Below, in pieces: positions 1 to 20,780 of a stretch of 21,243 nucleotides of DNA (position 1 is its first letter; every line of letters starts with the position of its first letter). This DNA is from a virus: positions 1-21,243 of IMG/VR virus record IMGVR_UViG_3300043411_002968; one strand, written 5' to 3'. A program made the position numbers and the translations under genes. The notes beneath the pieces are model-generated. The model was not told the DNA's origin, searched no databases, and saw only the letters and a list, made by a program, of their open reading frames with translations.

Positions 1-765
1 AAATATTATGTTTGATAAATCTGTTTCATTCAAATCAAAATAATCAAGAATTCCTTCAACAATTTCTTTTGTAACGTCCCATAAAAAATCAGGGTTTTGA
101 TAAGGCGATTTATCAGCTGTAGTTGAGTCATTACCTACAATTTTTGATAGTAAATTATTATCCAAAGGCATTAATTCTTCCATAATAATTATTGCGTAAT
201 TATTTTCTGGATTTAAAACATCTTTATATGGTGAATTTGAAGGAGAATCATCATCATCATCCCAAAAGTTTCTTTTAACTTTAATTTTATTAAAATCTTC
301 TTGATAGTTAATTTTGTATATCTTTGGCAAATATTTTTTAAGTGCAGGAACAACTGAACTTGAGGCATCTAATATATCTTCCCAATTTTTGACTTCTTTA
401 ATTCCATCTTCATAAAGAATAACTTTGGCCACAGCAGGTTTACCTTGATAAACTCCTCTAAAGACAGTTCCAAATGAACCCTGACCAAGAATAATTGATT
501 TTCCTCCAGCTTCTACTGGGTGAAAGTCTTCTTTTTTTAGTATGTTTGGAAAAGCACCTCTTTCAAAAGGAGGATGTGATTGCATTTTATTGTGAAAATC
601 TTTGCCTCCAACGGGATGTATTTTTTTCAAGTACTCATCTTCTGAAATGGGTTCAGATTCAAAATATTTTTCATCTATCTCTTCAAGATCTTCTATTTCC
701 TGTGCTAATTTTGTATAACCAGAAATTTTCAAAGTATTTGATAATATTTTTAATAAATTATTCAT
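1..765 (-). CDS. Protein-kinase-like protein, third tandem copy (C-terminus beyond window)
   Basis: The reading frame is open from an ATG at 765 to the window edge (255 codons seen), so the catalytic C-terminus is missing here. Residues 1-29 form the helical N-terminal element shared with the two upstream kinases. An acidic linker with SEPISEDEYL (37-46) follows. Then comes a kinase N-lobe: glycine-rich loop GQGSFG (94-99), VAK with the predicted ATP-binding Lys114, and a hinge-like segment IIIMEELMPL before the helical part. The ATG overlaps the stop of the upstream kinase by 8 bases (ATGAATAA), and an AGGA sits 10 bases upstream inside that gene. It is probably co-translated with the other two copies. 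Kinase fold is supported by alignment with its paralogues; substrate and activity are unknown. Confidence 0.8.
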   Translation of the reverse strand, partial: MNNLLKILSNTLKISGYTKLAQEIEDLEEIDEKYFESEPISEDEYLKKIHPVGGKDFHNKMQSHPPFERGAFPNILKKEDFHPVEAGGKSIILGQGSFGTVFRGVYQGKPAVAKVILYEDGIKEVKNWEDILDASSSVVPALKKYLPKIYKINYQEDFNKIKVKRNFWDDDDDSPSNSPYKDVLNPENNYAIIIMEELMPLDNNLLSKIVGNDSTTADKSPYQNPDFLWDVTKEIVEGILDYFDLNETDLSNIIF

Positions 766-1897
766 TTCCAAAAAGTCCTGCATCTATAAACTTTATTGTA
801 CCATCGGCGCCCATCATTAAATTATCAACGTGTAAATCATTCCATTTAACTCCGGCACTTCCCAACATTAGTAAGGCTTCGTAAAGTTCTTTTGTTTCTG
901 AACGATGCTCCCAAACTGGAGAATAATATTCGTAATCATGAAAATCCTTTGGCGTCGTAATACCATAATATCCTCTTGGAACACCTGGAACTTTACCAAT
1001 TGAATTATTTAAAATTGCTTTTATAATAGGAAAAACCTTTTCTTTATATTTTTCTCTGAATGGATACTTTTGTAATAAAAAGTTCGATATATTTTCAGCC
1101 ATAATTGTTGACGAAGGAAAAGATTTGTCATCTAATTTTTGAGATGACAGCAATTTAAATATTTCATTTGTATTAAGTTGAAAATTTCGCATATCCATCC
1201 TAAAATATGGATTTTTTGAAATTCCATCAACAATTAATGATGAGACTGTATATAAGTAATCATCATCTTTAAATAAATCTTTAATCATTTTTGATTTATC
1301 TATCATAGGATTATCATCCATGTTTAAATAAATATCTTTTGGTAACTTAAATAATTTTTCCATAATGATTATTTCATAATTTATTCCGAAAACATATTGA
1401 TTTTTTTCTTTTTTCAATACGCCTTTATTTAAGTGATAAATAACAGGAAAATGTTTTTTTAAATTTTCTGGAAAACTTTGTGTTATTTGCAATATTTTTT
1501 GCCAGTTTTCAACTTCTCCATTTGAGTTTAAAATAATTTTTATGGCAGCTAATTTACCTTTATAAACTCCTTGGAAGACAGAACCATAAGAACCTCGACC
1601 TAACAAAGGTTTCTCTTCACCTGAAGAAACTATTTTAAAGCCTTCTTGCTCGGCAATTTTATTATAATCATCAGCTAAATCCGAATCCGTCATATAAGAT
1701 TTTTGAGATACTTGATTTAAATATTCCTCTTCAGATATAGGTTCCGAGCCAAACTCCAAAGCGTCTTCTTCTTGAAGTTTATCGTGTTCTATTTCCCAAG
1801 GAAGAACATCTTCTTCCAGATTTTCAACTTCATTAGCCTCTTTGTGAAGATTATGAGTATATAAATAATTATATAATTTTTTTAAAAAATTATTCAA
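758..1897 (-). CDS. Protein-kinase-like protein, second tandem copy
   Basis: A 379-aa eukaryotic-like/atypical protein kinase fold. Residues 1-29 are the shared N-terminal helical element and SEPISEEEYL is at 51-60. The glycine loop GRGSYG is at 100-105 and the predicted ATP-binding Lys at 120 (AAIK). The catalytic segment WNDLHVDN (352-359) gives Asp354 and Asn359, and IDAG gives the metal-binding Asp372. The usual lysine two residues after the catalytic Asp is His, as in APH-like and atypical kinases. The protein ends only 7 residues after that Asp, so no activation loop or helices follow it. I chose the TTG at 1897 over the ATG at 1939: it gives MNNFLKK, matching the third copy, and overlaps the previous stop by 8 bases (TTGAATAA) exactly as the next junction does. 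The ATG would add 14 residues. Confidence 0.82.
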   Translation of the reverse strand: MNNFLKKLYNYLYTHNLHKEANEVENLEEDVLPWEIEHDKLQEEDALEFGSEPISEEEYLNQVSQKSYMTDSDLADDYNKIAEQEGFKIVSSGEEKPLLGRGSYGSVFQGVYKGKLAAIKIILNSNGEVENWQKILQITQSFPENLKKHFPVIYHLNKGVLKKEKNQYVFGINYEIIIMEKLFKLPKDIYLNMDDNPMIDKSKMIKDLFKDDDYLYTVSSLIVDGISKNPYFRMDMRNFQLNTNEIFKLLSSQKLDDKSFPSSTIMAENISNFLLQKYPFREKYKEKVFPIIKAILNNSIGKVPGVPRGYYGITTPKDFHDYEYYSPVWEHRSETKELYEALLMLGSAGVKWNDLHVDNLMMGADGTIKFIDAGLFGNE

Positions 1898-2984
1898 TTT
1901 TATAAAGTCCCATATCAATAATTTTGATATTACCATCATTTCCCATCATTAAATTATTTTCCTTAACATCGGCCCAAGATATGCCTAGTGAGGACATTTC
2001 TTCTAAAAATGATAACAATTGTTTTGTTTCCGGTAAATTACCAAAAAGTGGATTGTATTCTGTTGAATTAGGATCGTTATAATTTTTTTGTCCAGGAAAC
2101 CCTTCTTTAACTACGAACACTTTAATTAGACTTGTATTAAGTACTCTTTTAACTTTAATTAATTCACTACTCATGTCATATTCATTAACTACATAATTTG
2201 CAATATTATTAATGATATCATTATGACTATAAGAATTTATGTCACGCATTGAATACAAAACCTTAAATATTTCTTCTGGTGTAAGATCTTCAAAATAAAA
2301 CCATGAATCTAAATCTCTAGAAATCATTTTTGCCAAATCATATAAAAAATCTTCATCTTTAAGAGCAAGATTAAAGGATTCTTCCGATTTGTAATTGCCG
2401 ATTATCTCTCCAAGATGTTTATTTAATGGTTTTAATTCTTCCATCACTATGATTTCATATTGATAATGTTTGTCCACACCATCATTAGTAGGCGAAATAG
2501 AATCAACTTTAGATAAAAAAACTTGAGGGATATGCTTTCTTAAATTAGGAGATATTTTATCTTTAATAGACATTAACTTATGCCATTTTGGAGCCTCAAA
2601 ACCAAAATCATTAATAAATTTTTCAACAAAATCTTCAACCAAAACTATTTTTGCAACAACAGGCTGTCCTTTATAAATTCCTCGATAAACACGCCCAAAA
2701 GATCCTCTACCTATATATGAAGATTTACCTCCAGCCGAGACAGGCTTGAATCCTTCTTTAACAAAGATTTTACTAATAATATCCATACTAACATCTTCAT
2801 CATGCAAATCCGGATGAACCACTTGCTCTAAGTATTCATCTTCTGATATTGATTCAGGGCCAAATTCCTCAACAGCTTCTTGATGCCAAGACTCAGCATA
2901 TTCCTCTAAGTCTTTAATTTCTTGGGCAATTTTATGATAGTTGTTTTGAGTTAACCATTTTTTTAATTTGAAAAGAAATTTCAT
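1890..2984 (-). CDS. Protein-kinase-like protein, first tandem copy
   Basis: A 364-aa kinase-fold protein with the most canonical active site of the three. Residues 1-28 are the N-terminal helical element (LAxx-like IAQEIKDLEE at 19-28) and ESISEDEYLEQ is at 44-54. The glycine loop is GRGSFG (92-97) and the predicted ATP-binding Lys is 112 (VVAK). The catalytic segment WADVKENN (337-344) keeps Asp339, Lys341 and Asn344, equivalent to HRDxKxxN without the His-Arg. IIDMG gives Asp357 in place of DFG. The chain stops at 364, 7 residues past that Asp. The ATG at 2984 shares its A with the stop of the SOD-like gene (TAATG), and AGGA lies 8 bases upstream. Family membership is fairly sure. The partner or substrate is unknown. 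Confidence 0.85.
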   Translation of the reverse strand: MKFLFKLKKWLTQNNYHKIAQEIKDLEEYAESWHQEAVEEFGPESISEDEYLEQVVHPDLHDEDVSMDIISKIFVKEGFKPVSAGGKSSYIGRGSFGRVYRGIYKGQPVVAKIVLVEDFVEKFINDFGFEAPKWHKLMSIKDKISPNLRKHIPQVFLSKVDSISPTNDGVDKHYQYEIIVMEELKPLNKHLGEIIGNYKSEESFNLALKDEDFLYDLAKMISRDLDSWFYFEDLTPEEIFKVLYSMRDINSYSHNDIINNIANYVVNEYDMSSELIKVKRVLNTSLIKVFVVKEGFPGQKNYNDPNSTEYNPLFGNLPETKQLLSFLEEMSSLGISWADVKENNLMMGNDGNIKIIDMGLYKIE

Positions 2985-3691
2985 TATTTTATCCTAATAC
3001 TTTTAATTCTTTTTTTAACTAGTCTCCAATCAATTCTATTTAGAAACCATTTAACATATTCTTCTTTATTCAAGCCAAAATCTGAAAAATATGCATGCTC
3101 CCACATATCTAAAGCTAAAACTGGTATGCTTGAAATTAAGATGTTTTGGTCATGTGAATCGATAACATTAAAAATTAACTTTTTATTATATACGCAATAA
3201 CTAAAAACTACCCAACCATTTCTAGGGATTAAAGAAAGTCTATATAATTCTTGAGAAAAAGAATTATAATCTCCATACAATTCTTTTAAAAACAAAGACA
3301 TTTGTTCATCTTTTTCAATAGAATATGGATTATTATTTACAACATCAGAAAAGTACATTTCATGCAAAATTATTGCATTATGATTATAAGCATAAGAACT
3401 TGCTATATCTCGTAGCTTCCCAAAGTTAGGACTATCTTTTTCATTTTTAGACTTCATTACTTTGGCACGCTCTAAATCTAAATTTTCGATCGCTTTTTTG
3501 TACCCATTTAATAATGTTATGTGATCATCTACAGTAGACTCTTTAAGTCCACATTTATGTAAATCTTTGTTTTTTTGACTTGAGTTTTTAACATAATTAT
3601 CAACAAAGTCATCTAATATAGATGCTTCTTTTTTAAGACCTTTTTCATCTAAAGTTTCTGCAATATCTAGTAAATCATTTAAATAATTCAT
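2984..3691 (-). CDS. Fe/Mn superoxide dismutase-like protein with N-terminal tag
   Basis: A 235-aa protein whose residues about 45-225 follow the Fe/Mn SOD fold. The C-terminal signature LDMWEHAYF (194-202) gives two metal ligands, Asp195 and His199, followed by the usual W/R-rich tail. NHNAIILHEMYF (103-114) supplies His110. STVDDH (52-57) supplies His57 as the likely first ligand, by alignment with the ETIEYH of bacterial FeSOD. All four ligands are therefore plausibly present. SOD turns superoxide into H2O2 and O2. Residues 1-30 (DIAETLDEKGLKKEA core) lie outside the SOD domain and match the N-terminal element of the downstream kinases. The gene is coupled to the first kinase by TAATG and lies 2 bases after the upstream small gene. 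The ribosome site is weak. It could be a structural SOD relative with altered activity. Confidence 0.85.
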   Translation of the reverse strand: MNYLNDLLDIAETLDEKGLKKEASILDDFVDNYVKNSSQKNKDLHKCGLKESTVDDHITLLNGYKKAIENLDLERAKVMKSKNEKDSPNFGKLRDIASSYAYNHNAIILHEMYFSDVVNNNPYSIEKDEQMSLFLKELYGDYNSFSQELYRLSLIPRNGWVVFSYCVYNKKLIFNVIDSHDQNILISSIPVLALDMWEHAYFSDFGLNKEEYVKWFLNRIDWRLVKKRIKSIRIK

Positions 3692-9791: not shown

Positions 9792-10010
9792 TTATGAAAG
9801 ACTATCTTGGAGTGATTTCATAACTTCTTCAAGCATCTTCCTTTCTTCCGCAGGAATTAATAATTCTATTTCCTCGACTTCAGAATTATTAATATTAGAT
9901 AATTCAGATATTATTTCAGAATCAATTTTATCAGCCAAATCTAATTGGCCACGTCTATCTAAAAGATCTGATACTTTAATTAACTTTTCTATAAGACTTT
10001 TTTTTCTCAC
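9792..10010 (-). CDS. Small protein carrying the shared N-terminal helical element
   Basis: A 72-aa acidic protein that starts with GTG at 10010, with GGGGGTGA just upstream, and lies 15 bases after the dUTPase stop. Residues 5-35 (core LIKVSDLLDRRGQLDLADKI) match the N-terminal element of the SOD-like protein and, more loosely, the three kinase-like proteins. The remaining 35 residues are a Glu/Ser/Leu-rich helix with no recognised domain. It may be little more than the tag plus a short tail. I cannot assign a function; it is interesting because the tag stands almost alone. Confidence 0.65.
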   Translation of the reverse strand: MRKKSLIEKLIKVSDLLDRRGQLDLADKIDSEIISELSNINNSEVEEIELLIPAEERKMLEEVMKSLQDSLS

Positions 10011-13198: not shown

Positions 13199-13987
13199 AT
13201 GAGAGATACCTTTGCAGAAATATTTTACTTCGTAACATTTTTATTTTTAATATCAATTATATGTTTTGCTGATAATAATAAAATGACAACATCTAAAGAA
13301 AATTATATATTACAAACTTCGATCGGTAGTTACACAAATTTAAAAAATAATAAAGATAGCCAAATATTTATTGATTCCGTTTTAAAATTAGACTACATAG
13401 ATGAAATGGATTCTGTATCTAGTGCCACAGGTTTCAGCGTCATCTATAAAGGAGACGATGATATTAGTTATATATTAACTAACGAACACTTTTGTGAAAA
13501 GAATATTTCCGGCGACAAAGGGACTTTTTATTATGAACTACCTAACGTTGAAATTTCGACAACGTCTAGGATATTCGTTGATTCCTTAAAGGTTGTTGCT
13601 TCAAAAAAAGCACAAGATTTATGTTTATTGTCAATGAATGGTTACATTAAACCTGTTAAACTTGCTCCTGATGGTTATGAAATATCTAGAATGGAGCCCA
13701 TTATAATTGTTGGAAGTCCCCATGAACAATTTCCTGTTGTTAGAGAGACTTTTATAACTAATACAGTTTCAATAAAAGAAGTTTTTAGTTGGATGAGTCT
13801 TAACGCTCCAGCTTTATTTATTTCAGATATTGTTTTGCCTGGAGAAAGTGGTAGCCCAATCTACAATAAAAAGGGTGATGTCATTGGCATAGTTGATGCT
13901 ACAATGTCAAATGGATCTATTGTGTTTGGAGGGGTAGGTATATCTTATGTTGATATAAAAAGTTTTTTAAAAGAAACTAGACTTTAA
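13199..13987 (+). CDS. Secreted trypsin-like serine protease
   Basis: A 262-aa chymotrypsin-fold serine protease. Residues about 7-24 are strongly hydrophobic and end FADNN, a signal peptide or membrane anchor, so it should be exported from the host cytoplasm or sit in the envelope. Catalytic triad: His97 in YILTNEHFC (91-99; TAAHC in trypsin), Asp140 in AQDLCLL, and Ser217 in LPGESGSPIYNKKGDVIGIV. There is no PDZ domain. AAGGAG lies 5 bases before the ATG. It stands alone on the plus strand, divergent from the fibre pair, and its 3' end overlaps the convergent gene by 11 bases. Possible roles are envelope attack, processing of fibre or envelope proteins, or lysis support; none is shown. Confidence 0.87.
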   Translation: MRDTFAEIFYFVTFLFLISIICFADNNKMTTSKENYILQTSIGSYTNLKNNKDSQIFIDSVLKLDYIDEMDSVSSATGFSVIYKGDDDISYILTNEHFCEKNISGDKGTFYYELPNVEISTTSRIFVDSLKVVASKKAQDLCLLSMNGYIKPVKLAPDGYEISRMEPIIIVGSPHEQFPVVRETFITNTVSIKEVFSWMSLNAPALFISDIVLPGESGSPIYNKKGDVIGIVDATMSNGSIVFGGVGISYVDIKSFLKETRL

Positions 13988-14457: not shown

Positions 14458-15795
14458 TTACATTACTTTGGCTGCGAATGTAGCTAATTTACTACGCTCT
14501 CCTTTCCTTAATGTAATGTGAGCCGAATGACCAAATTCTTTGAATAATTCTACCACTGATGAGAGCCCTGAATTATCTTGATTTAACGAAGGGGAATCTA
14601 TTTGTTCTAAATCTCCAGTCAAAATAATTTTTGAGCGATCACCCATTCTTGTTAACAACGCTTTAGCCTCATGATGAGTAATGTTTTGCGCCTCGTCTAT
14701 AATAAAAATGGTATCAGGTAAAGTTCTTCCTCGGATATATGTCATGGCCTCTACCTCTATAATACCTTTATCAATCATTAATTCTATATAAGAATTACTT
14801 TTACCACTATAAATTATATCTATATTATCGAATATTGGTTGTATCCAAGGAGCCATTTTTTCTTCCTTTGTTCCTGGTAAAAATCCAATATCCTTGCTTG
14901 TACTTTGAACTGGGCGTGATATGATTAACTTTTTATAAGTTTTATCATGAAGCATTTTTATAGCTGCCGCAATAGCTAACAATGTTTTTCCTGATCCAGC
15001 AAATCCAGCCATTGTAACTAAATGAATGTTTGGATCTAATAAAAATTCACAAGCTAAAGTCTGCTCCTTAGAACGTGGTGTAATTCCTTCCATAGAAAAT
15101 CCTTTTTCGCCTGAAATATATAATTTTCTAACTCTGGTTTCATTTTCAGCAATGGCTAATGCTGATGATTGACCTGATTTTAAAATCACGCCTTGATTTG
15201 GATAAAAATTACAATTAAATAATTCTACATTACCAACGCTATAGAATTCATCAATTTCATCTTTTGAAACTTCCACAATCTCAGTTCCACTAAATAATTG
15301 ATCTTCGCTTGAAAATTTTTTATGATTGTAATCTATTGATGGAATAGATAATGCATCACATTTAACACGTAATGCTATATCTTTACTAACCACAGTTACA
15401 TTTTTTCCATCTTTCATTAATTTGACGGCTACTGATATAATTCTATTATCATTTATATCTGCCATACCTGATGGTAATAGTGATAAATCAGAATCAGAAA
15501 CAATGTAAATTGTTTGGCCATTATCTAATAATATTCCTTCTGAAGCGTTTCCCATTCCTAAATATTTATCTAGATATCTATTAACATAACGACATGATGC
15601 CCCAACAGAATCGGACCTTGTTTTTAAAGTATCCAATTCTTCTAAAACTTCAATAGGTAAATAGACGTTGTGATCAGCAAAATCATGAATAGACTCGCCA
15701 TGTGCAGCCAAAACCGATGTATCAATTACGTAGTTTAAGCGCTCATTTTCCTGCAATAAATATGGTGACATTAACACTCCATTTATATCAAACAT
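14458..15795 (-). CDS. phoH: PIN-PhoH protein (RNA helicase/nuclease type)
   Basis: A 445-aa two-domain protein of the YlaK/PhoH2 type. The N-terminal PIN nuclease-like domain (about 20-160) has YVIDTSVLA (22-30) with Asp25, LPIEVLEELD (46-55) and the later acidic SDSDL and NDNRI. The C-terminal PhoH ATPase (about 240-445) has Walker A GFAGSGKT (264-271), SRPVQSTSKDIGFLPGTKEE (293-312), Walker B IFIIDEAQ (363-370) and LTGDLEQID (392-400). Cellular homologues unwind and cut RNA; PhoH is very frequent in marine phages, where its role is unsettled. The ATG overlaps the upstream stop by 8 bases (ATGTTTGA). Domain calls are secure. Confidence 0.93.
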   Translation of the reverse strand: MFDINGVLMSPYLLQENERLNYVIDTSVLAAHGESIHDFADHNVYLPIEVLEELDTLKTRSDSVGASCRYVNRYLDKYLGMGNASEGILLDNGQTIYIVSDSDLSLLPSGMADINDNRIISVAVKLMKDGKNVTVVSKDIALRVKCDALSIPSIDYNHKKFSSEDQLFSGTEIVEVSKDEIDEFYSVGNVELFNCNFYPNQGVILKSGQSSALAIAENETRVRKLYISGEKGFSMEGITPRSKEQTLACEFLLDPNIHLVTMAGFAGSGKTLLAIAAAIKMLHDKTYKKLIISRPVQSTSKDIGFLPGTKEEKMAPWIQPIFDNIDIIYSGKSNSYIELMIDKGIIEVEAMTYIRGRTLPDTIFIIDEAQNITHHEAKALLTRMGDRSKIILTGDLEQIDSPSLNQDNSGLSSVVELFKEFGHSAHITLRKGERSKLATFAAKVM

Positions 15796-16196: not shown

Positions 16197-16904
16197 TTAT
16201 TCTATTCTTTTGACCTTCCATATACCAAAAATTAAGCTGTTTGTATGTTTTTTTGAATGTGTGCAAAGTCTTCTACTTATTGACATTGGTGAGCAACCTA
16301 TCTTTTTAGACATTTCTTTTAATGATTCTGTTATAAAAACATCATTCGTTTGTATATTCTCTGCCATTATTCTAGATATAAATCCTGGGTTGTTTTTACC
16401 TGTTAAAGATTTTTTTATTTTTTCCTTTGAGAAATCAGAATGTTTTTTTCCTAAATGAGCTAAACGATTTTTTTCTTTAGCTTCTACTGTGTGTTTCTTA
16501 CCCTTAAAAGCTTTGCTTACTTTTAAACGAGATTCTTTTGATAATCTCAAACCAAACATTGGGCTTGTTGCATTATGAGCTATATTATAGTATAGCTTGC
16601 TATGATTATTAAGTAAGAATATTTCATCAAGATATTTTTGTTCTATGTCCAAGCATTGATTTATTTCGCAAAATTCAATAATTTTAAATTCAAAGTTATC
16701 TTTGCCGCATTTATTAAAAGATCTCTGTAAATATTTGTTAGTATGCTTATTTCTCTCTAGCATGTAAAAATGATACCTGGCTCGCCTCCTAAATATTTTA
16801 GCAGAGCCAAGATATTTTTTTCCATTTTTTAAATTAATAATTATATATATACCACCTTTGTCTAGGTCTTCATCTTCGCCATGATAATACCTTACTTTGA
16901 CCAA
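16197..16904 (-). CDS. GIY-YIG homing endonuclease
   Basis: A 235-aa free-standing GIY-YIG nuclease. The signature is GGIYIII then KKYLGSA (YLG replaces YIG). The conserved Arg/His region is FRRRARYH, the catalytic Glu is in DIEQKYLDEI, and YYNIAHNA follows. Next are NUMOD3-type DNA-binding motifs (SPMFGLRLSKESRLKVSKAF, then GKKHSDFSKEKIKKSLTGKNNP) and a C-terminal helix-turn-helix (EMSKKIGCSPMSISRRL). There is no ATG near the 5' end. I take the TTG at 16904, 7 bases after GAGG; a TTG at 16910 is the other option. Either start lies inside the last codons of nrdB in another frame. It cuts DNA to spread itself; no intron core is visible around it. Confidence 0.87.
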   Translation of the reverse strand: MVKVRYYHGEDEDLDKGGIYIIINLKNGKKYLGSAKIFRRRARYHFYMLERNKHTNKYLQRSFNKCGKDNFEFKIIEFCEINQCLDIEQKYLDEIFLLNNHSKLYYNIAHNATSPMFGLRLSKESRLKVSKAFKGKKHTVEAKEKNRLAHLGKKHSDFSKEKIKKSLTGKNNPGFISRIMAENIQTNDVFITESLKEMSKKIGCSPMSISRRLCTHSKKHTNSLIFGIWKVKRIE

Positions 16905-17851
16905 CCCCAATCCTCGCCACTTAATCCGGCTGCGCTATAGTCTGTAACAGTGCCTTCAAAGAAATTTTTAAATGAGTCTCCATTAATAATCCAATCTAAC
17001 CATGGCAAAGGATTTTCAACAATATTCCAATTTGCTTTTAAACCCAAACCGTTCAATCTACGATCAGCAATATATCGAATGTATTGTTTAACTTCTTCTT
17101 TTGTTAAACCATCAATATCACCCATTGAATATGTTAAATCAATAACTTTATCTTCCAAAGCAACGGCATCTATAAACATTTGATAAATAGAGGCTTTAAA
17201 TTTATCATTAACAACCCTTGAGTGCTCTTGACAAAATTCTCTAAAAAGTCTAGTCATGCCCTCAACATGAAGAGTTTCATCCCTAATACTCCATTCAACA
17301 ATCTCACACATTCCTTTCATTTTACCAAATCTTTGATAATTCAGTAACATAACGAATGCACTAAATAACGACATCCCCTCATTACAGGTGGTCTGAGCTA
17401 AAGACTTGCCTAATCCTGTTAACGTTGTTACATCATTATTTTGCATAAATTCTATTTTAGATCTTAATTCATGATATTCTAAAAATGTACTGTACTCACT
17501 ATCAGGAAAACCTAAAGTATCGTTTAATAAAGCATAGGCCCTTTGATGTGTCCCCTCTCTGTTTGCAAAACTTAGTAACATATTTCTGATTTCATTGTTT
17601 TTAAATTTTGGAATAAATAAATCGCAATAATTACCGCCAACAGTAACGTCAGTTTGTGTAAACAGTCTTAAAATTTGAGTGATGTGATTTTTTTCTTCTG
17701 GTTTAATAGCTCCAACTTTCCATTGGTTTATATCTTCTTGCAATTTTGCTTCCCAGCTGCCCCAATGAATCTTTTCATGAGATTCAGCCAACTCCATTGC
17801 CCATGGGTATTTAAAAGGCTTATATGTTTCTGATGATTCTAACATTGACAT
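16892..17851 (-). CDS. nrdB: Ribonucleotide reductase small subunit, class Ia
   Basis: A 319-aa ferritin-like R2 subunit that holds the diiron-tyrosyl radical cofactor for NrdA. Predicted ligands, matching E. coli R2 in spacing, are Asp68, Glu99, His102 (REGTHQRAY), Glu158 (NEGMSLF), Glu192 and His195 (RDETLH). The radical tyrosine is Tyr106. The C-terminal tail VTDYSAAGLSGEDWGWSK is the same length as in the TEYSRA-type R2 family, so the protein looks complete, although a C-terminal Lys is unusual. The ATG at 17851 lies within the 3' end of the upstream homing-endonuclease gene (13-base overlap). Its GGAG (17860-17863) is coded inside that gene. The 3' end overlaps the GIY-YIG gene. Confidence 0.95.
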   Translation of the reverse strand: MSMLESSETYKPFKYPWAMELAESHEKIHWGSWEAKLQEDINQWKVGAIKPEEKNHITQILRLFTQTDVTVGGNYCDLFIPKFKNNEIRNMLLSFANREGTHQRAYALLNDTLGFPDSEYSTFLEYHELRSKIEFMQNNDVTTLTGLGKSLAQTTCNEGMSLFSAFVMLLNYQRFGKMKGMCEIVEWSIRDETLHVEGMTRLFREFCQEHSRVVNDKFKASIYQMFIDAVALEDKVIDLTYSMGDIDGLTKEEVKQYIRYIADRRLNGLGLKANWNIVENPLPWLDWIINGDSFKNFFEGTVTDYSAAGLSGEDWGWSK

Positions 17852-18987
17852 TTTAATTTCTCCAATTCATTTTTAAGAATATTTTCTATATTCTTATAGT
17901 TTTGATAATTTATTCTTAATAATTTTAAACTATTATTCTCACAATATTTTTGCTTAATGTTATCATTGGCTTGCAATTTCTTAAAAGAATTTTCACCACC
18001 AAAACGACTTACTGGATGGTAGTGTTGTATTCCGTCATACTCGATGCATAAGTTATACTCTTGTAAATAAAAGTCAAAAGGCATCTTTTTTAATTCTGGA
18101 AATCTTTTTTGACGATTATATTTTATTGATTTTTTTTCTAACCATAGCGCTATTCTTTTTTCACCCTTACTTTCAAAACATAATGGACACCCATTACCAT
18201 TTAAATGACCTAATGGGGTTTGATTAAACGTACCGTGTGTCAGACATATAATTGAAATATTAGTTTTATTATTGACATAATTAACCAGCGAATAATCATA
18301 TTTATTTGCATGAATCTTAAAGGACTCATTTAAAAAGAATTCCTTTGATTTTGCCAAACTTGTTCCGCAAGAAATTCTACCACACTTTGGGCACCCACTC
18401 CCAGATAAGTGGGTATATGGTTTTTGTTTAAAACCACCATGCTGATGGCACACAATATTAATTTCCTTAAACGAATTAATGTAATTAACTTTAGAATAAT
18501 CATATTTATCATTATGTATGATAATTGCATCGTTAATAAAAGATTCAAGACTTTTACTCATAGATTTCTTTGCTTGAATTTTTCCACATGTTGGACAACC
18601 ACATCCTTGCAAGTGTGAATTAGGTGATTGCAAAAAAGAACCATGTTCAAGACAAATTATTTCAATTTTCATATTACTTTTTATATAAACCGCTTTGGAA
18701 TAATTAAATTTATCGCCATGAACTTTGATGGCTTTTTTTATAAATTCATCAATAGAAGAAGACTTACAGTTTGTAGTAATTTCTACACCACATTTTTTAC
18801 ATCCATGACCATTCAAATGGTCATAAGGTTTTTGTAGAAAGAAACCATGTTTATAACAGAAAATTTTTATTTTAGTATAATTATTAACATAATTGACTGT
18901 GTCATAATTATATTTATTATGATGTTTGTTTTGTGCCTCTAAAACAAAGGCACATAAATTTGTGTATCTCATCTTTATAAGACTCAT
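17839..18987 (-). CDS. Homing endonuclease with DUF723-like zinc repeats and EDxHD/Vsr-like nuclease domain
   Basis: A 382-aa protein inserted between nrdA and nrdB. Four repeats of about 65 residues (about 15-66, 77-134, 147-202, 214-270) each have a K[YF][ND]YSxVxYxN-like strand, a CxxHGxFxQxPxxHLxGxGC segment and a CxxC pair. They are probably small zinc-bound DNA-recognition units. The C-terminal domain CIEYDGIQHYHPVSRFGGE (314-332) with downstream NDNIKQKYC resembles the Vsr/EDxHD nuclease fold of I-Bth0305I-type free-standing homing endonucleases. I chose the ATG at 18987, which shares its A with the nrdA stop (TAATG), over a TTG at 19008 lying inside nrdA. It should cut allelic phage genomes lacking it near nrdA/nrdB. 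Confidence 0.88.
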   Translation of the reverse strand: MSLIKMRYTNLCAFVLEAQNKHHNKYNYDTVNYVNNYTKIKIFCYKHGFFLQKPYDHLNGHGCKKCGVEITTNCKSSSIDEFIKKAIKVHGDKFNYSKAVYIKSNMKIEIICLEHGSFLQSPNSHLQGCGCPTCGKIQAKKSMSKSLESFINDAIIIHNDKYDYSKVNYINSFKEINIVCHQHGGFKQKPYTHLSGSGCPKCGRISCGTSLAKSKEFFLNESFKIHANKYDYSLVNYVNNKTNISIICLTHGTFNQTPLGHLNGNGCPLCFESKGEKRIALWLEKKSIKYNRQKRFPELKKMPFDFYLQEYNLCIEYDGIQHYHPVSRFGGENSFKKLQANDNIKQKYCENNSLKLLRINYQNYKNIENILKNELEKLKCQC

Positions 18988-20780
18988 TAGCCTTGACAGG
19001 CTACACAATCGTCTCCTTCTTTACTTACATAGTCGGCCAAAGGTTTTCTTTCTACCTTATATGAAACCTTATCTGCTGTTACACCAGCATTAGTTCTTAA
19101 ATAATATAAACCTTTTAGTTTTTCCTTCCAAGCCTTCAAGTGTACTTGGTTGACATAACTACGACTTGCGCCTGCTGGGAAAAATAAATTTACACTTTGA
19201 CCTTGACAAACAAATTTTTGCCTATCTGCTGCGTGAGCAACAACCCAATTCTGATCAATTTCAAAGGCGGTTTTGAATACATCCTTATCTTCATCAGACA
19301 TAAAATCCAAATGTTGTACGGATCCCATATTAGTGATAATTGATGGCCAAACTTTTTCTAACCATTCATCCTTATTTTCAACAGAAGGAGCATATTTATT
19401 AATCAGTAATTGTTCTAAATACTTATTCTTAACAAAGAAACTTCCCGCTCTAGTTCTATGGACATAGGCATTACTTTTCCATGGTTCAATACTTGGCGAT
19501 GCTGCAAGTATTATTCCACTGTTAGCGTTAGGAGCAATTGCAAGCAAATGAGCATTCCTTTTTCCTGAGCCAATTCCATCTAAATATTCTCCTCGTTCTT
19601 GAGCCAACAATTCTGTTTCCATCTCTGCCTGCTCTTTTATATGGCTAAATATTTGAAGATTAATAACTTTAGCTAAACTAGAATCCCATGGTATCATATT
19701 TTTTTGAAGATATGAATGAAAACCCATCGCTCCTATACCAATACTTCTTTCTCTTGCCGCTGAGAATTTCGCTTTAATAAGAACATCAGGAGCGTTGTCA
19801 ATAAAAAATTGCAAAACATTATCTAAAAATCTAACTAAATCTCTAACAATCGAGGTTTCCTTCCATTCATTAAATGTTTCCAAATTCAATGAACTCAGAC
19901 AACAAACAGCTGTTCGTTCCGAAGATGTTGGTAATTCTATTTCTTGACAAAGATTTGAATTATTTATTTTTAAACCCAATTTTTTAAGTGGATCTGGCAA
20001 ACACCTATTAGCCTCATCAATAAAATGCATGTAAGGCTCACCAGTCCTAAATCTAATTTCCAAAATTCTTTGCCATAAATCTCTAGCTTTGGTTGTGCCT
20101 CTAATAGTTTTATCATTAGGATCTATAAAATTCCAATCCTCATCCTTGGAAACAGCTTCCATAAATTCATCGGTAATATTTATTGCATTATGAAGATTAA
20201 AACATTTACGATTAGGATCTCCTCCGGTTGGTAATCTTATATTTAAGAATTCTTCTAAATCGGGATGACTAATGTCAAGATATGCGGCATATGATGCTCT
20301 ACGTGTAGTGCCCTGCCTATATGCAGTAACATCAGCATCAATAGTTTTTAAAAATGGTATTGGACCTGGTGCCACATTACTTACACTTCTTATATTTGAC
20401 CAACCCGCTCCAATACCACCACCTTTTACTGATAACCATCTTATCTCTTCTGTATGAGCAATCAAGCTTTCTAGTGTATCATCTACCGACAATAGGTAGC
20501 AGCTAATTGGCAAAGCCTTTGTTTTTTGTCCTACTTGTGGTGCATTAGACAACACTGGGCTTGCATACATAAACCAGCCCTTAGATGCATAATCATATAT
20601 TCTCTGAGCTAGAGAAATATCTCCTGCACAATAAGCTAATGCGGCTCTAGCAAAAGATTCCTGAGGGCTTACCTCATCTTTTTGCTGATAATATTTACCA
20701 AGTAAATCTAGAGCAAAGTGATCTAACCCTTTATCTCGATCTAAGTCTATGGTAATTCCGTGATAATCCCTTAATTGCAT
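18987..20780 (-). CDS. nrdA: Ribonucleotide reductase large subunit, class Ia, without ATP-cone
   Basis: A 597-aa R1 subunit reducing ribonucleoside diphosphates to deoxy forms with NrdB. Active-site landmarks: Cys94 in ALPISCYLL, NLCQEI (276-281; Asn276, Cys278, Glu280), Cys293/294 in AVCCLSSLNL (second redox Cys), Tyr559-Tyr560 in LYYLRT (radical path), and CVAC at 592-595 as the C-terminal redox pair. IAPNANSGIILAASPSIEPW (414-433) is the conserved phosphate-binding region. It is short: about 150 residues fewer than E. coli NrdA, and the N-terminal ATP-cone that mediates dATP inhibition is absent. The ATG at 20780 is 4 bases after GGAGG; a GTG at 20837 would add 19 unlikely residues. Confidence 0.95.
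   Translation of the reverse strand: MQLRDYHGITIDLDRDKGLDHFALDLLGKYYQQKDEVSPQESFARAALAYCAGDISLAQRIYDYASKGWFMYASPVLSNAPQVGQKTKALPISCYLLSVDDTLESLIAHTEEIRWLSVKGGGIGAGWSNIRSVSNVAPGPIPFLKTIDADVTAYRQGTTRRASYAAYLDISHPDLEEFLNIRLPTGGDPNRKCFNLHNAINITDEFMEAVSKDEDWNFIDPNDKTIRGTTKARDLWQRILEIRFRTGEPYMHFIDEANRCLPDPLKKLGLKINNSNLCQEIELPTSSERTAVCCLSSLNLETFNEWKETSIVRDLVRFLDNVLQFFIDNAPDVLIKAKFSAARERSIGIGAMGFHSYLQKNMIPWDSSLAKVINLQIFSHIKEQAEMETELLAQERGEYLDGIGSGKRNAHLLAIAPNANSGIILAASPSIEPWKSNAYVHRTRAGSFFVKNKYLEQLLINKYAPSVENKDEWLEKVWPSIITNMGSVQHLDFMSDEDKDVFKTAFEIDQNWVVAHAADRQKFVCQGQSVNLFFPAGASRSYVNQVHLKAWKEKLKGLYYLRTNAGVTADKVSYKVERKPLADYVSKEGDDCVACQG

Follow-up and report, generated by a model that had tools for sequence, protein, structure and literature searches.

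Three overlapping kinase-like genes in a large phage

The window analysed here is a whole virus record of 21,243 bp, which derives from a large uncultivated phage. After a gene for a protein resembling superoxide dismutase, its minus strand carries three kinase-like genes, A, B, and C, which lie side by side and overlap one another (table 1). The count of three comprises two complete copies, A and B, and one partial copy, C, the catalytic half of which is outside the contig. For copy B the mechanical open reading frame starts from the ATG at 1939 and would encode 393 residues; we have placed its start at a downstream TTG, because the junction between A and B is homologous to that between B and C. 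At both junctions the stop codon of one gene falls within the start of the next (ATTGAATAATTT for A and B, AATGAATAATTT for B and C), and the two can be described by the same pattern, (A/G)GGACTTTxTxxAAxTGAATAATTT. The Shine-Dalgarno-like GGGA present in both corresponds to the Gly-Leu codons of the terminal motif, DxGL[FY]. Given this overlap of stop and start, the DNA downstream of each junction holds no leftover coding for a C-lobe.

Table 1. Position of the kinase-like genes, their relevant elements, and other genes in the window
Feature	Position	Strand	Evidence or remark
Kinase copy A, 364 aa	1890..2984	-	Pfam Pkinase; AF2 model and VIA-align
Kinase copy B, 379 aa from TTG 1897	758..1897	-	Start assigned by homology of its junction with the ATG junction of copy C
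Kinase copy C, first 255 aa	1..765	-	Cut by contig end before the catalytic loop; HMM and tree group C with A and B
A/B junction, GGGACTTTATAAAATTGAATAA	1880..1925	-	A stop overlaps B start
B/C junction, AGGACTTTTTGGAAATGAATAA	748..793	-	Arrangement as in A/B
Copy A catalytic codons	K112 2649-2651; E130 2595-2597; D339 1968-1970; N344 1953-1955; D357 1914-1916	-
Copy B catalytic codons	K120 1538-1540; D354 836-838; D372 782-784	-	Last residue 379
Copy A insertion, hinge to helix E, residues 189-316	2037..2420	-	Mostly confident helices in the AF2 model; two-block PDB matches; proposed substitute C-lobe
Copy A N-terminal hairpin, residues 1-28, AQE	2901..2984	-	AF2 model; equivalents in B, C, and the giant-phage homologue
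Copy B N-terminal hairpin, ANE	1811..1897	-
Copy C N-terminal hairpin, AQE	679..765	-
Superoxide dismutase-like protein	2984-3691	-	PF02777 3.9e-17; Aquifex enzyme 1coj 1.3e-17
72-aa protein	9792-10010	-
Trypsin-like serine protease	13199-13987	+	PF13365 7e-11
PhoH	14458-15795		Lead to related large phage contigs
GIY-YIG/NUMOD3 homing-type endonuclease	16197-16910	-	Adjoins RNR small-subunit gene
Treble-clef protein (DUF4379)	17839-19008	-	Between RNR subunit genes

Several of the other genes deserve a comment. The protein encoded directly upstream of the kinases belongs by similarity to the Fe/Mn superoxide dismutases, and the regions of the second His and of the C-terminal Asp/His ligands align (LHEMYF, LDMWEHAY), while conservation around the first metal-ligand His is not clear; for this reason it may not be a standard superoxide dismutase. 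The serine protease has a hydrophobic N-terminus and is encoded on the strand opposite to that of most genes. The endonuclease and the treble-clef protein are probably the products of mobile genes that reside in the RNR operon.

Kinase signatures and predicted fold

Copy A presents a glycine loop, GRGSFGRV, at residues 92-99, followed by the catalytic residues listed in table 1. In both A and B, which retain the glycine loop, the ATP-binding Lys, the catalytic Asp and Asn and the DxG Asp, the last residue lies exactly 7 positions after the DxG Asp, precisely as the preliminary description of this DNA had it. Its broader claim of three tandem kinase-like genes with a C-terminal active site holds in full for the complete copies; the portion of copy C within the contig includes the glycine loop (94-101) and Lys114. 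The Pfam Pkinase profile matches copy A with an E value of 6e-9 (36.0 bits, above the cut-off of 31.7) and copy B with 2e-6 (27.8 bits, below the same cut-off), while a search with copy A matched B at 38% identity and C at 45%. Moreover, when the residues of A or of B were shuffled, 20,000 times each, the ordered set of motifs never appeared. On these three grounds, the motif set is not a product of chance.

The N-lobe has all the elements of the protein kinase superfamily (PF00069-like), namely the glycine loop, the beta-3 Lys, the alpha-C Glu, and five strands, and the catalytic-loop Asp and Asn together with the DxG Asp also conform to this superfamily. The textbook minimal protein kinase additionally includes an activation segment and helices F-I. 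Neither an activation segment with APE nor helices F-I follow the DFG position in A and B, which are therefore not classical kinases. Some catalytic positions vary within the family. Residue 341 of copy A (1962-1964, minus strand) is Lys (DVKENN, as in the eukaryotic HRDLKxxN), the equivalent residue being His in all other family members (DLHxxN), and in one clade the beta-3 Lys is replaced by Arg (VAR for VAK) with the other catalytic residues kept (L091, 1667-2620; L101, 2258-3235; L102, 2724-3779; L042, 8791-9705). Because of these substitutions, kinase activity may vary among family members.

An AlphaFold2 (AF2) model of copy A was obtained from an alignment of 18 sequences (pLDDT 80.1, pTM 0.63) and replaced an earlier, weak model based upon 4 sequences (pLDDT 63). 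The modelled chain proceeds from an N-terminal hairpin through beta-1 to beta-3, helix C, beta-4, and beta-5 to a series of helices within residues 189-316, and then to helix E (318-332), the catalytic loop, beta-7/8, DxG, and the chain end; residues 291-310, just before helix E, have pLDDT below 50. Foldseek returned TM-scores of about 0.3, because the insertion breaks the alignment, and VIA-align 2 was used instead. With this program the model matched Aurora A with a Z of 11.9 (132 residues, 2.5 Å, chain 128-280), and Z was at least 8 for 683 of 999 chains, the match with solved kinases generally ending at DFG or just past it. Structural matches span only 132 of the 364 residues of copy A, from beta-1 to DFG. 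Consistent with this, the A3 family profile recognised kinases among PDB sequences with E values down to 2e-11 in two blocks, one being the N-lobe and the other extending from helix E to DFG. HipA, APH, and Bud32 are not among the listed structural matches of copy A, the list being filled by eukaryotic-type kinases. A kinase fold is thus predicted for copy A, and the outcome that would have spoken against the preliminary description, a predicted structure devoid of such a fold, did not occur. That description had also placed a helical C-lobe in roughly 150 residues ahead of the catalytic loop; the model and the two-block PDB matches point to an insertion of about 125 residues, mostly helical, before helix E.

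Could these proteins phosphorylate small molecules instead of proteins? The kinase fold is shared by phosphotransferases acting on nucleosides, sugars, antibiotics, or lipids, such as APH and choline kinase, and the Asp-Leu-His-x-x-Asn catalytic loop of the family is APH-like. APH-type enzymes are also without an activation segment, and the Pfam family APH is matched by two A3 family members at E<0.01 (best 7.5e-5), choline kinase by one. We nevertheless regard this reading as unlikely, given that Pkinase is the best Pfam family (6 members), the matches shown by the PDB profile and VIA-align are protein kinases, the PHROG neighbours are protein kinases of the gp0.7 type, and neither A nor B has an APH match at E<=10. 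Moreover, APH enzymes have further helices after their DxD, and these are absent from the kinases of the window.

Homologues, their common end, and the age of the triplication

Following the lead of PhoH, a kinase homologue was found in two related contigs of 395 and 236 kb: an identical protein of 384 residues, 28% identical to A, in which 16 residues follow the DxG Asp. Just downstream of this giant-phage kinase and on the same strand lies a gene for a calcineurin-like phosphoesterase (L013, 2769-3467, plus strand; PF00149, 3.5e-9), which makes a kinase/phosphatase pairing possible. Relatives were also sought with copy A, the A/B/C alignment, and the giant-phage protein as queries, and none came up other than those in the two related contigs; a pattern-limited search of bacterial and archaeal genomes likewise retrieved none. 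For A and B, as for three distant family members, tblastn over 50,697 phage records produced no full-length match of any credibility. We have also scanned IMG/VR with degenerate DNA patterns that describe the catalytic loop and impose no condition on the sequence after DxG. Of the distinct kinases retrieved in this way, roughly half end at most 25 residues after the DxG Asp, while the others have from 30 to several hundred more. Among them, L049, L106, L048, L088, L091, L053, L101, L102, L042, and others are recognised by the profile built from the window family.

In relatives from other large phages, between 5 and 22 residues follow the DxG Asp, the number being 5-11 in L042, L048, L049, L053, L088, L105, L106, G018, G019, and the second kinase of G016. 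Members at contig edges share this end once their frames are completed ('...VISDPGRFGFAN', '...VISDPGLFRFYD', '...VVIDVGQYEIE'), and the second kinase of a 371-kb phage terminates with '...VLIDYGLYRFMNEDE'. The exception is L109, which continues for about 109 residues past DxG. Overall, the short layout recurs in about 20 distinct phage kinases, including a T7 gp0.7 homologue and kinases of cultured Streptomyces phages, so that it is not special to the triplet. The frames of the window could in principle be remnants of longer kinases, truncated by error or mutation, an idea to which only their departure from the textbook layout lends some appeal; the equal end of homologues from independent contigs and cultured phages, together with the conserved overlap of stop and start at the junctions, renders it hardly credible. 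The second outcome that would have spoken against the preliminary description, homologues revealing truncation of longer kinases, did not occur either. Several genes of the short kinase class are currently annotated as hypothetical, and annotation would gain from their recognition; the subset of open-access literature that we searched yielded no description of phage kinases devoid of the activation segment.

How old, then, is the triplication? A, B, and C form a single clade in the tree (support 98/98), in which each of their end branches measures 0.8-1.1 changes per site. On this phylogenetic evidence the triplication is lineage-specific and old, because the three copies cluster so firmly and their end branches are so long. 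Family members outside the window are 16-28% identical to A. Among the 12 other contigs with family members, 11 have one copy and only the 371-kb phage has two; G019 was counted once, because its two matches belong to a single frame of 346 residues. That the copies of the window were kept after so long a divergence suggests a division of substrates among them, which is plausible. The preliminary description had proposed several substrates or a stepwise action on host proteins, and the retention of such old copies would be in keeping with specialisation.

Conservation also bears upon whether these proteins are catalysts at all. They might be pseudokinases or binding modules, in which the shortened fold binds a nucleotide or a host partner without catalysis, as could be surmised from the missing helices, which in other kinases hold the substrate and stabilise the core, and from the clade in which the beta-3 Lys is Arg. 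However, the catalytic Asp, the Asn, and the DxG Asp do not vary across 17 rows of the alignment, and both complete paralogs have kept them after about 1 change per site, which makes loss of catalysis improbable. More specifically, D339, N344, M346, D357, P297, and Phe/Tyr361 are retained in 17 of the 17 rows that reach them, the position of E130 is Glu or Asp in 15 of 15, and that of the beta-3 Lys is Lys or Arg in 14 of 15. Fold and residues together imply phosphotransfer, as far as a predicted structure allows us to infer.

Candidate roles and known systems

The explanation that we favour, and hold to be reasonably probable, is that A, B, and C are phage protein kinases reduced to a minimum at their C-terminus, with a role in host takeover like that of gp0.7 and with the insertion serving as substrate lobe. 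Each complete copy is predicted to have an ordinary N-lobe, helix E, the catalytic loop, and the Mg-binding DxG, and the chain then ends, dispensing with the activation segment, APE, and helices F-I. The glycine loop, K112/E130, and D357 would bind ATP, while D339 would act as catalytic base. The helical insertion before helix E may hold the substrate in place of the missing C-lobe. The absence of the activation segment implies that there would be no switching by activation-loop phosphorylation, so that the enzyme would presumably be active once made. By analogy with T7 gp0.7, host proteins of transcription, RNA processing, or translation could be phosphorylated during takeover, and the three copies may divide these substrates between them.

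An additional possibility, compatible with the host-takeover role, concerns the route by which the kinases reach the host. At the N-terminus of A, B, C, and the giant-phage copy (AQE), a helical hairpin that contains A-[QN]-E is predicted over residues 1 to 28 or 29. The prohead protease of phage SPN3US cuts after A-x-E, with several sites being AQE, and mostly frees N-terminal propeptides of head or ejected proteins (PMC10052503). The hairpin with its A-x-E is thus possibly a tag for packaging in the capsid: it would be a propeptide cut by the prohead protease, and the kinases would enter the host together with DNA. The sequence AQE/ANE/AQE/AQE in the four closest copies fits with this, as do the hairpin-like N-termini of other proteins of the 395-kb relative, including a lysozyme-like one. 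We see only a modest chance for such packaging, since A-x-E is a short motif and the kinase genes lie amid genes of DNA metabolism, not head genes. Furthermore, a hairpin profile built with kinases only adds just one protein, in the 395-kb phage (3.6e-5), and although a relaxed hairpin pattern falls in the first 30 residues for 8 of its 9 occurrences, that pattern was drawn partly from those very hits. As to the window itself, a joint profile that contains both the 72-aa and the superoxide dismutase-like proteins indicates in each a kinase-like N-terminal hairpin, LDxxGxxxxA; the kinase-only profile detects neither, and a tag common to them and the kinases is at best faintly hinted at. Another N-terminal motif, LRxLIRxxLLE, was sought in related loci and is present only in the kinases themselves.

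A bolder generalisation would be that DxG-ending kinases constitute a distinct structural class, present in unrelated phages, which has lost the whole C-lobe after DFG and has derived its substrate lobe from the insertion, and that the three diverged copies of the present lineage are in addition packaged in the virion via the AxE tag so as to act at infection; taken as a whole, it appears rather doubtful. Be that as it may, a widespread group of phage kinases ending at DxG raises general questions: How little of the fold suffices for phosphotransfer, and where does specificity sit?

Among known systems, T7 gp0.7 (PHROGs 2828 and 15752) is likewise a phage kinase, having its catalytic Asp at position 195 and the DxG-type Asp at 213 of 359 residues, 18 apart as in A. 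The N-terminal ~30 kDa are reported to carry its kinase activity (PMC4858673). It differs from the window family in having a separate C-terminal domain for host shutoff and no large insertion. The kinase core is completed soon after the DxG-type Asp in both lineages: after 7 residues in A and B, and after 4 in L044, a gp0.7 homologue of 202 residues (2e-13) that ends two residues after DPV. Six A3 family members match the gp0.7-type phrog_15752 (best 2.8e-5), where shown only around the catalytic loop, whereas the A3 profile aligned by hhalign with gp0.7 alone covers just 33 residues around the same loop with a probability of 12%, and copy A itself matches no PHROG at 0.01. The best named phage match around the catalytic loop is gp56 of Blastoid, a Bacillus Andromedavirus phage, which is 48.8% identical over 41 residues to the giant-phage homologue but continues for about 90 more residues after DxG.

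With respect to eukaryotic-type kinases (PF00069) such as Aurora A and PLK4, the portion from the N-lobe to DFG superposes (Z of about 12, 2.5-2.7 Å, about 132 residues), but the window kinase has nothing of what follows DFG and possesses instead, ahead of helix E, the large insertion of helices. RIO and Bud32 are atypical kinases without the activation loop and part of the C-lobe, which keep some helices after DxG; compared with this general description, the window family has only 5-22 residues there. A parallel in layout comes from the cultured Streptomyces phage Emma1919 (Gilsonvirus) with its small kinases gp252, gp259, and gp264. In these proteins the chain stops 3-5 residues past the DxG Asp ('...LIDLGA', '...VVDLGLAN', '...VIDIGA'); the annotation reads serine/threonine kinase for two of them and hypothetical for the other. 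They are unlike those of the window in being 166-239 residues long, non-adjacent, without the 125-residue insertion, and without close sequence similarity. Since cultured Streptomyces phages have up to three short kinases per genome, both the layout and the multiplicity seen in the window have precedents in cultured phages, and a layout common to these phages and to T7 relatives is directly testable.
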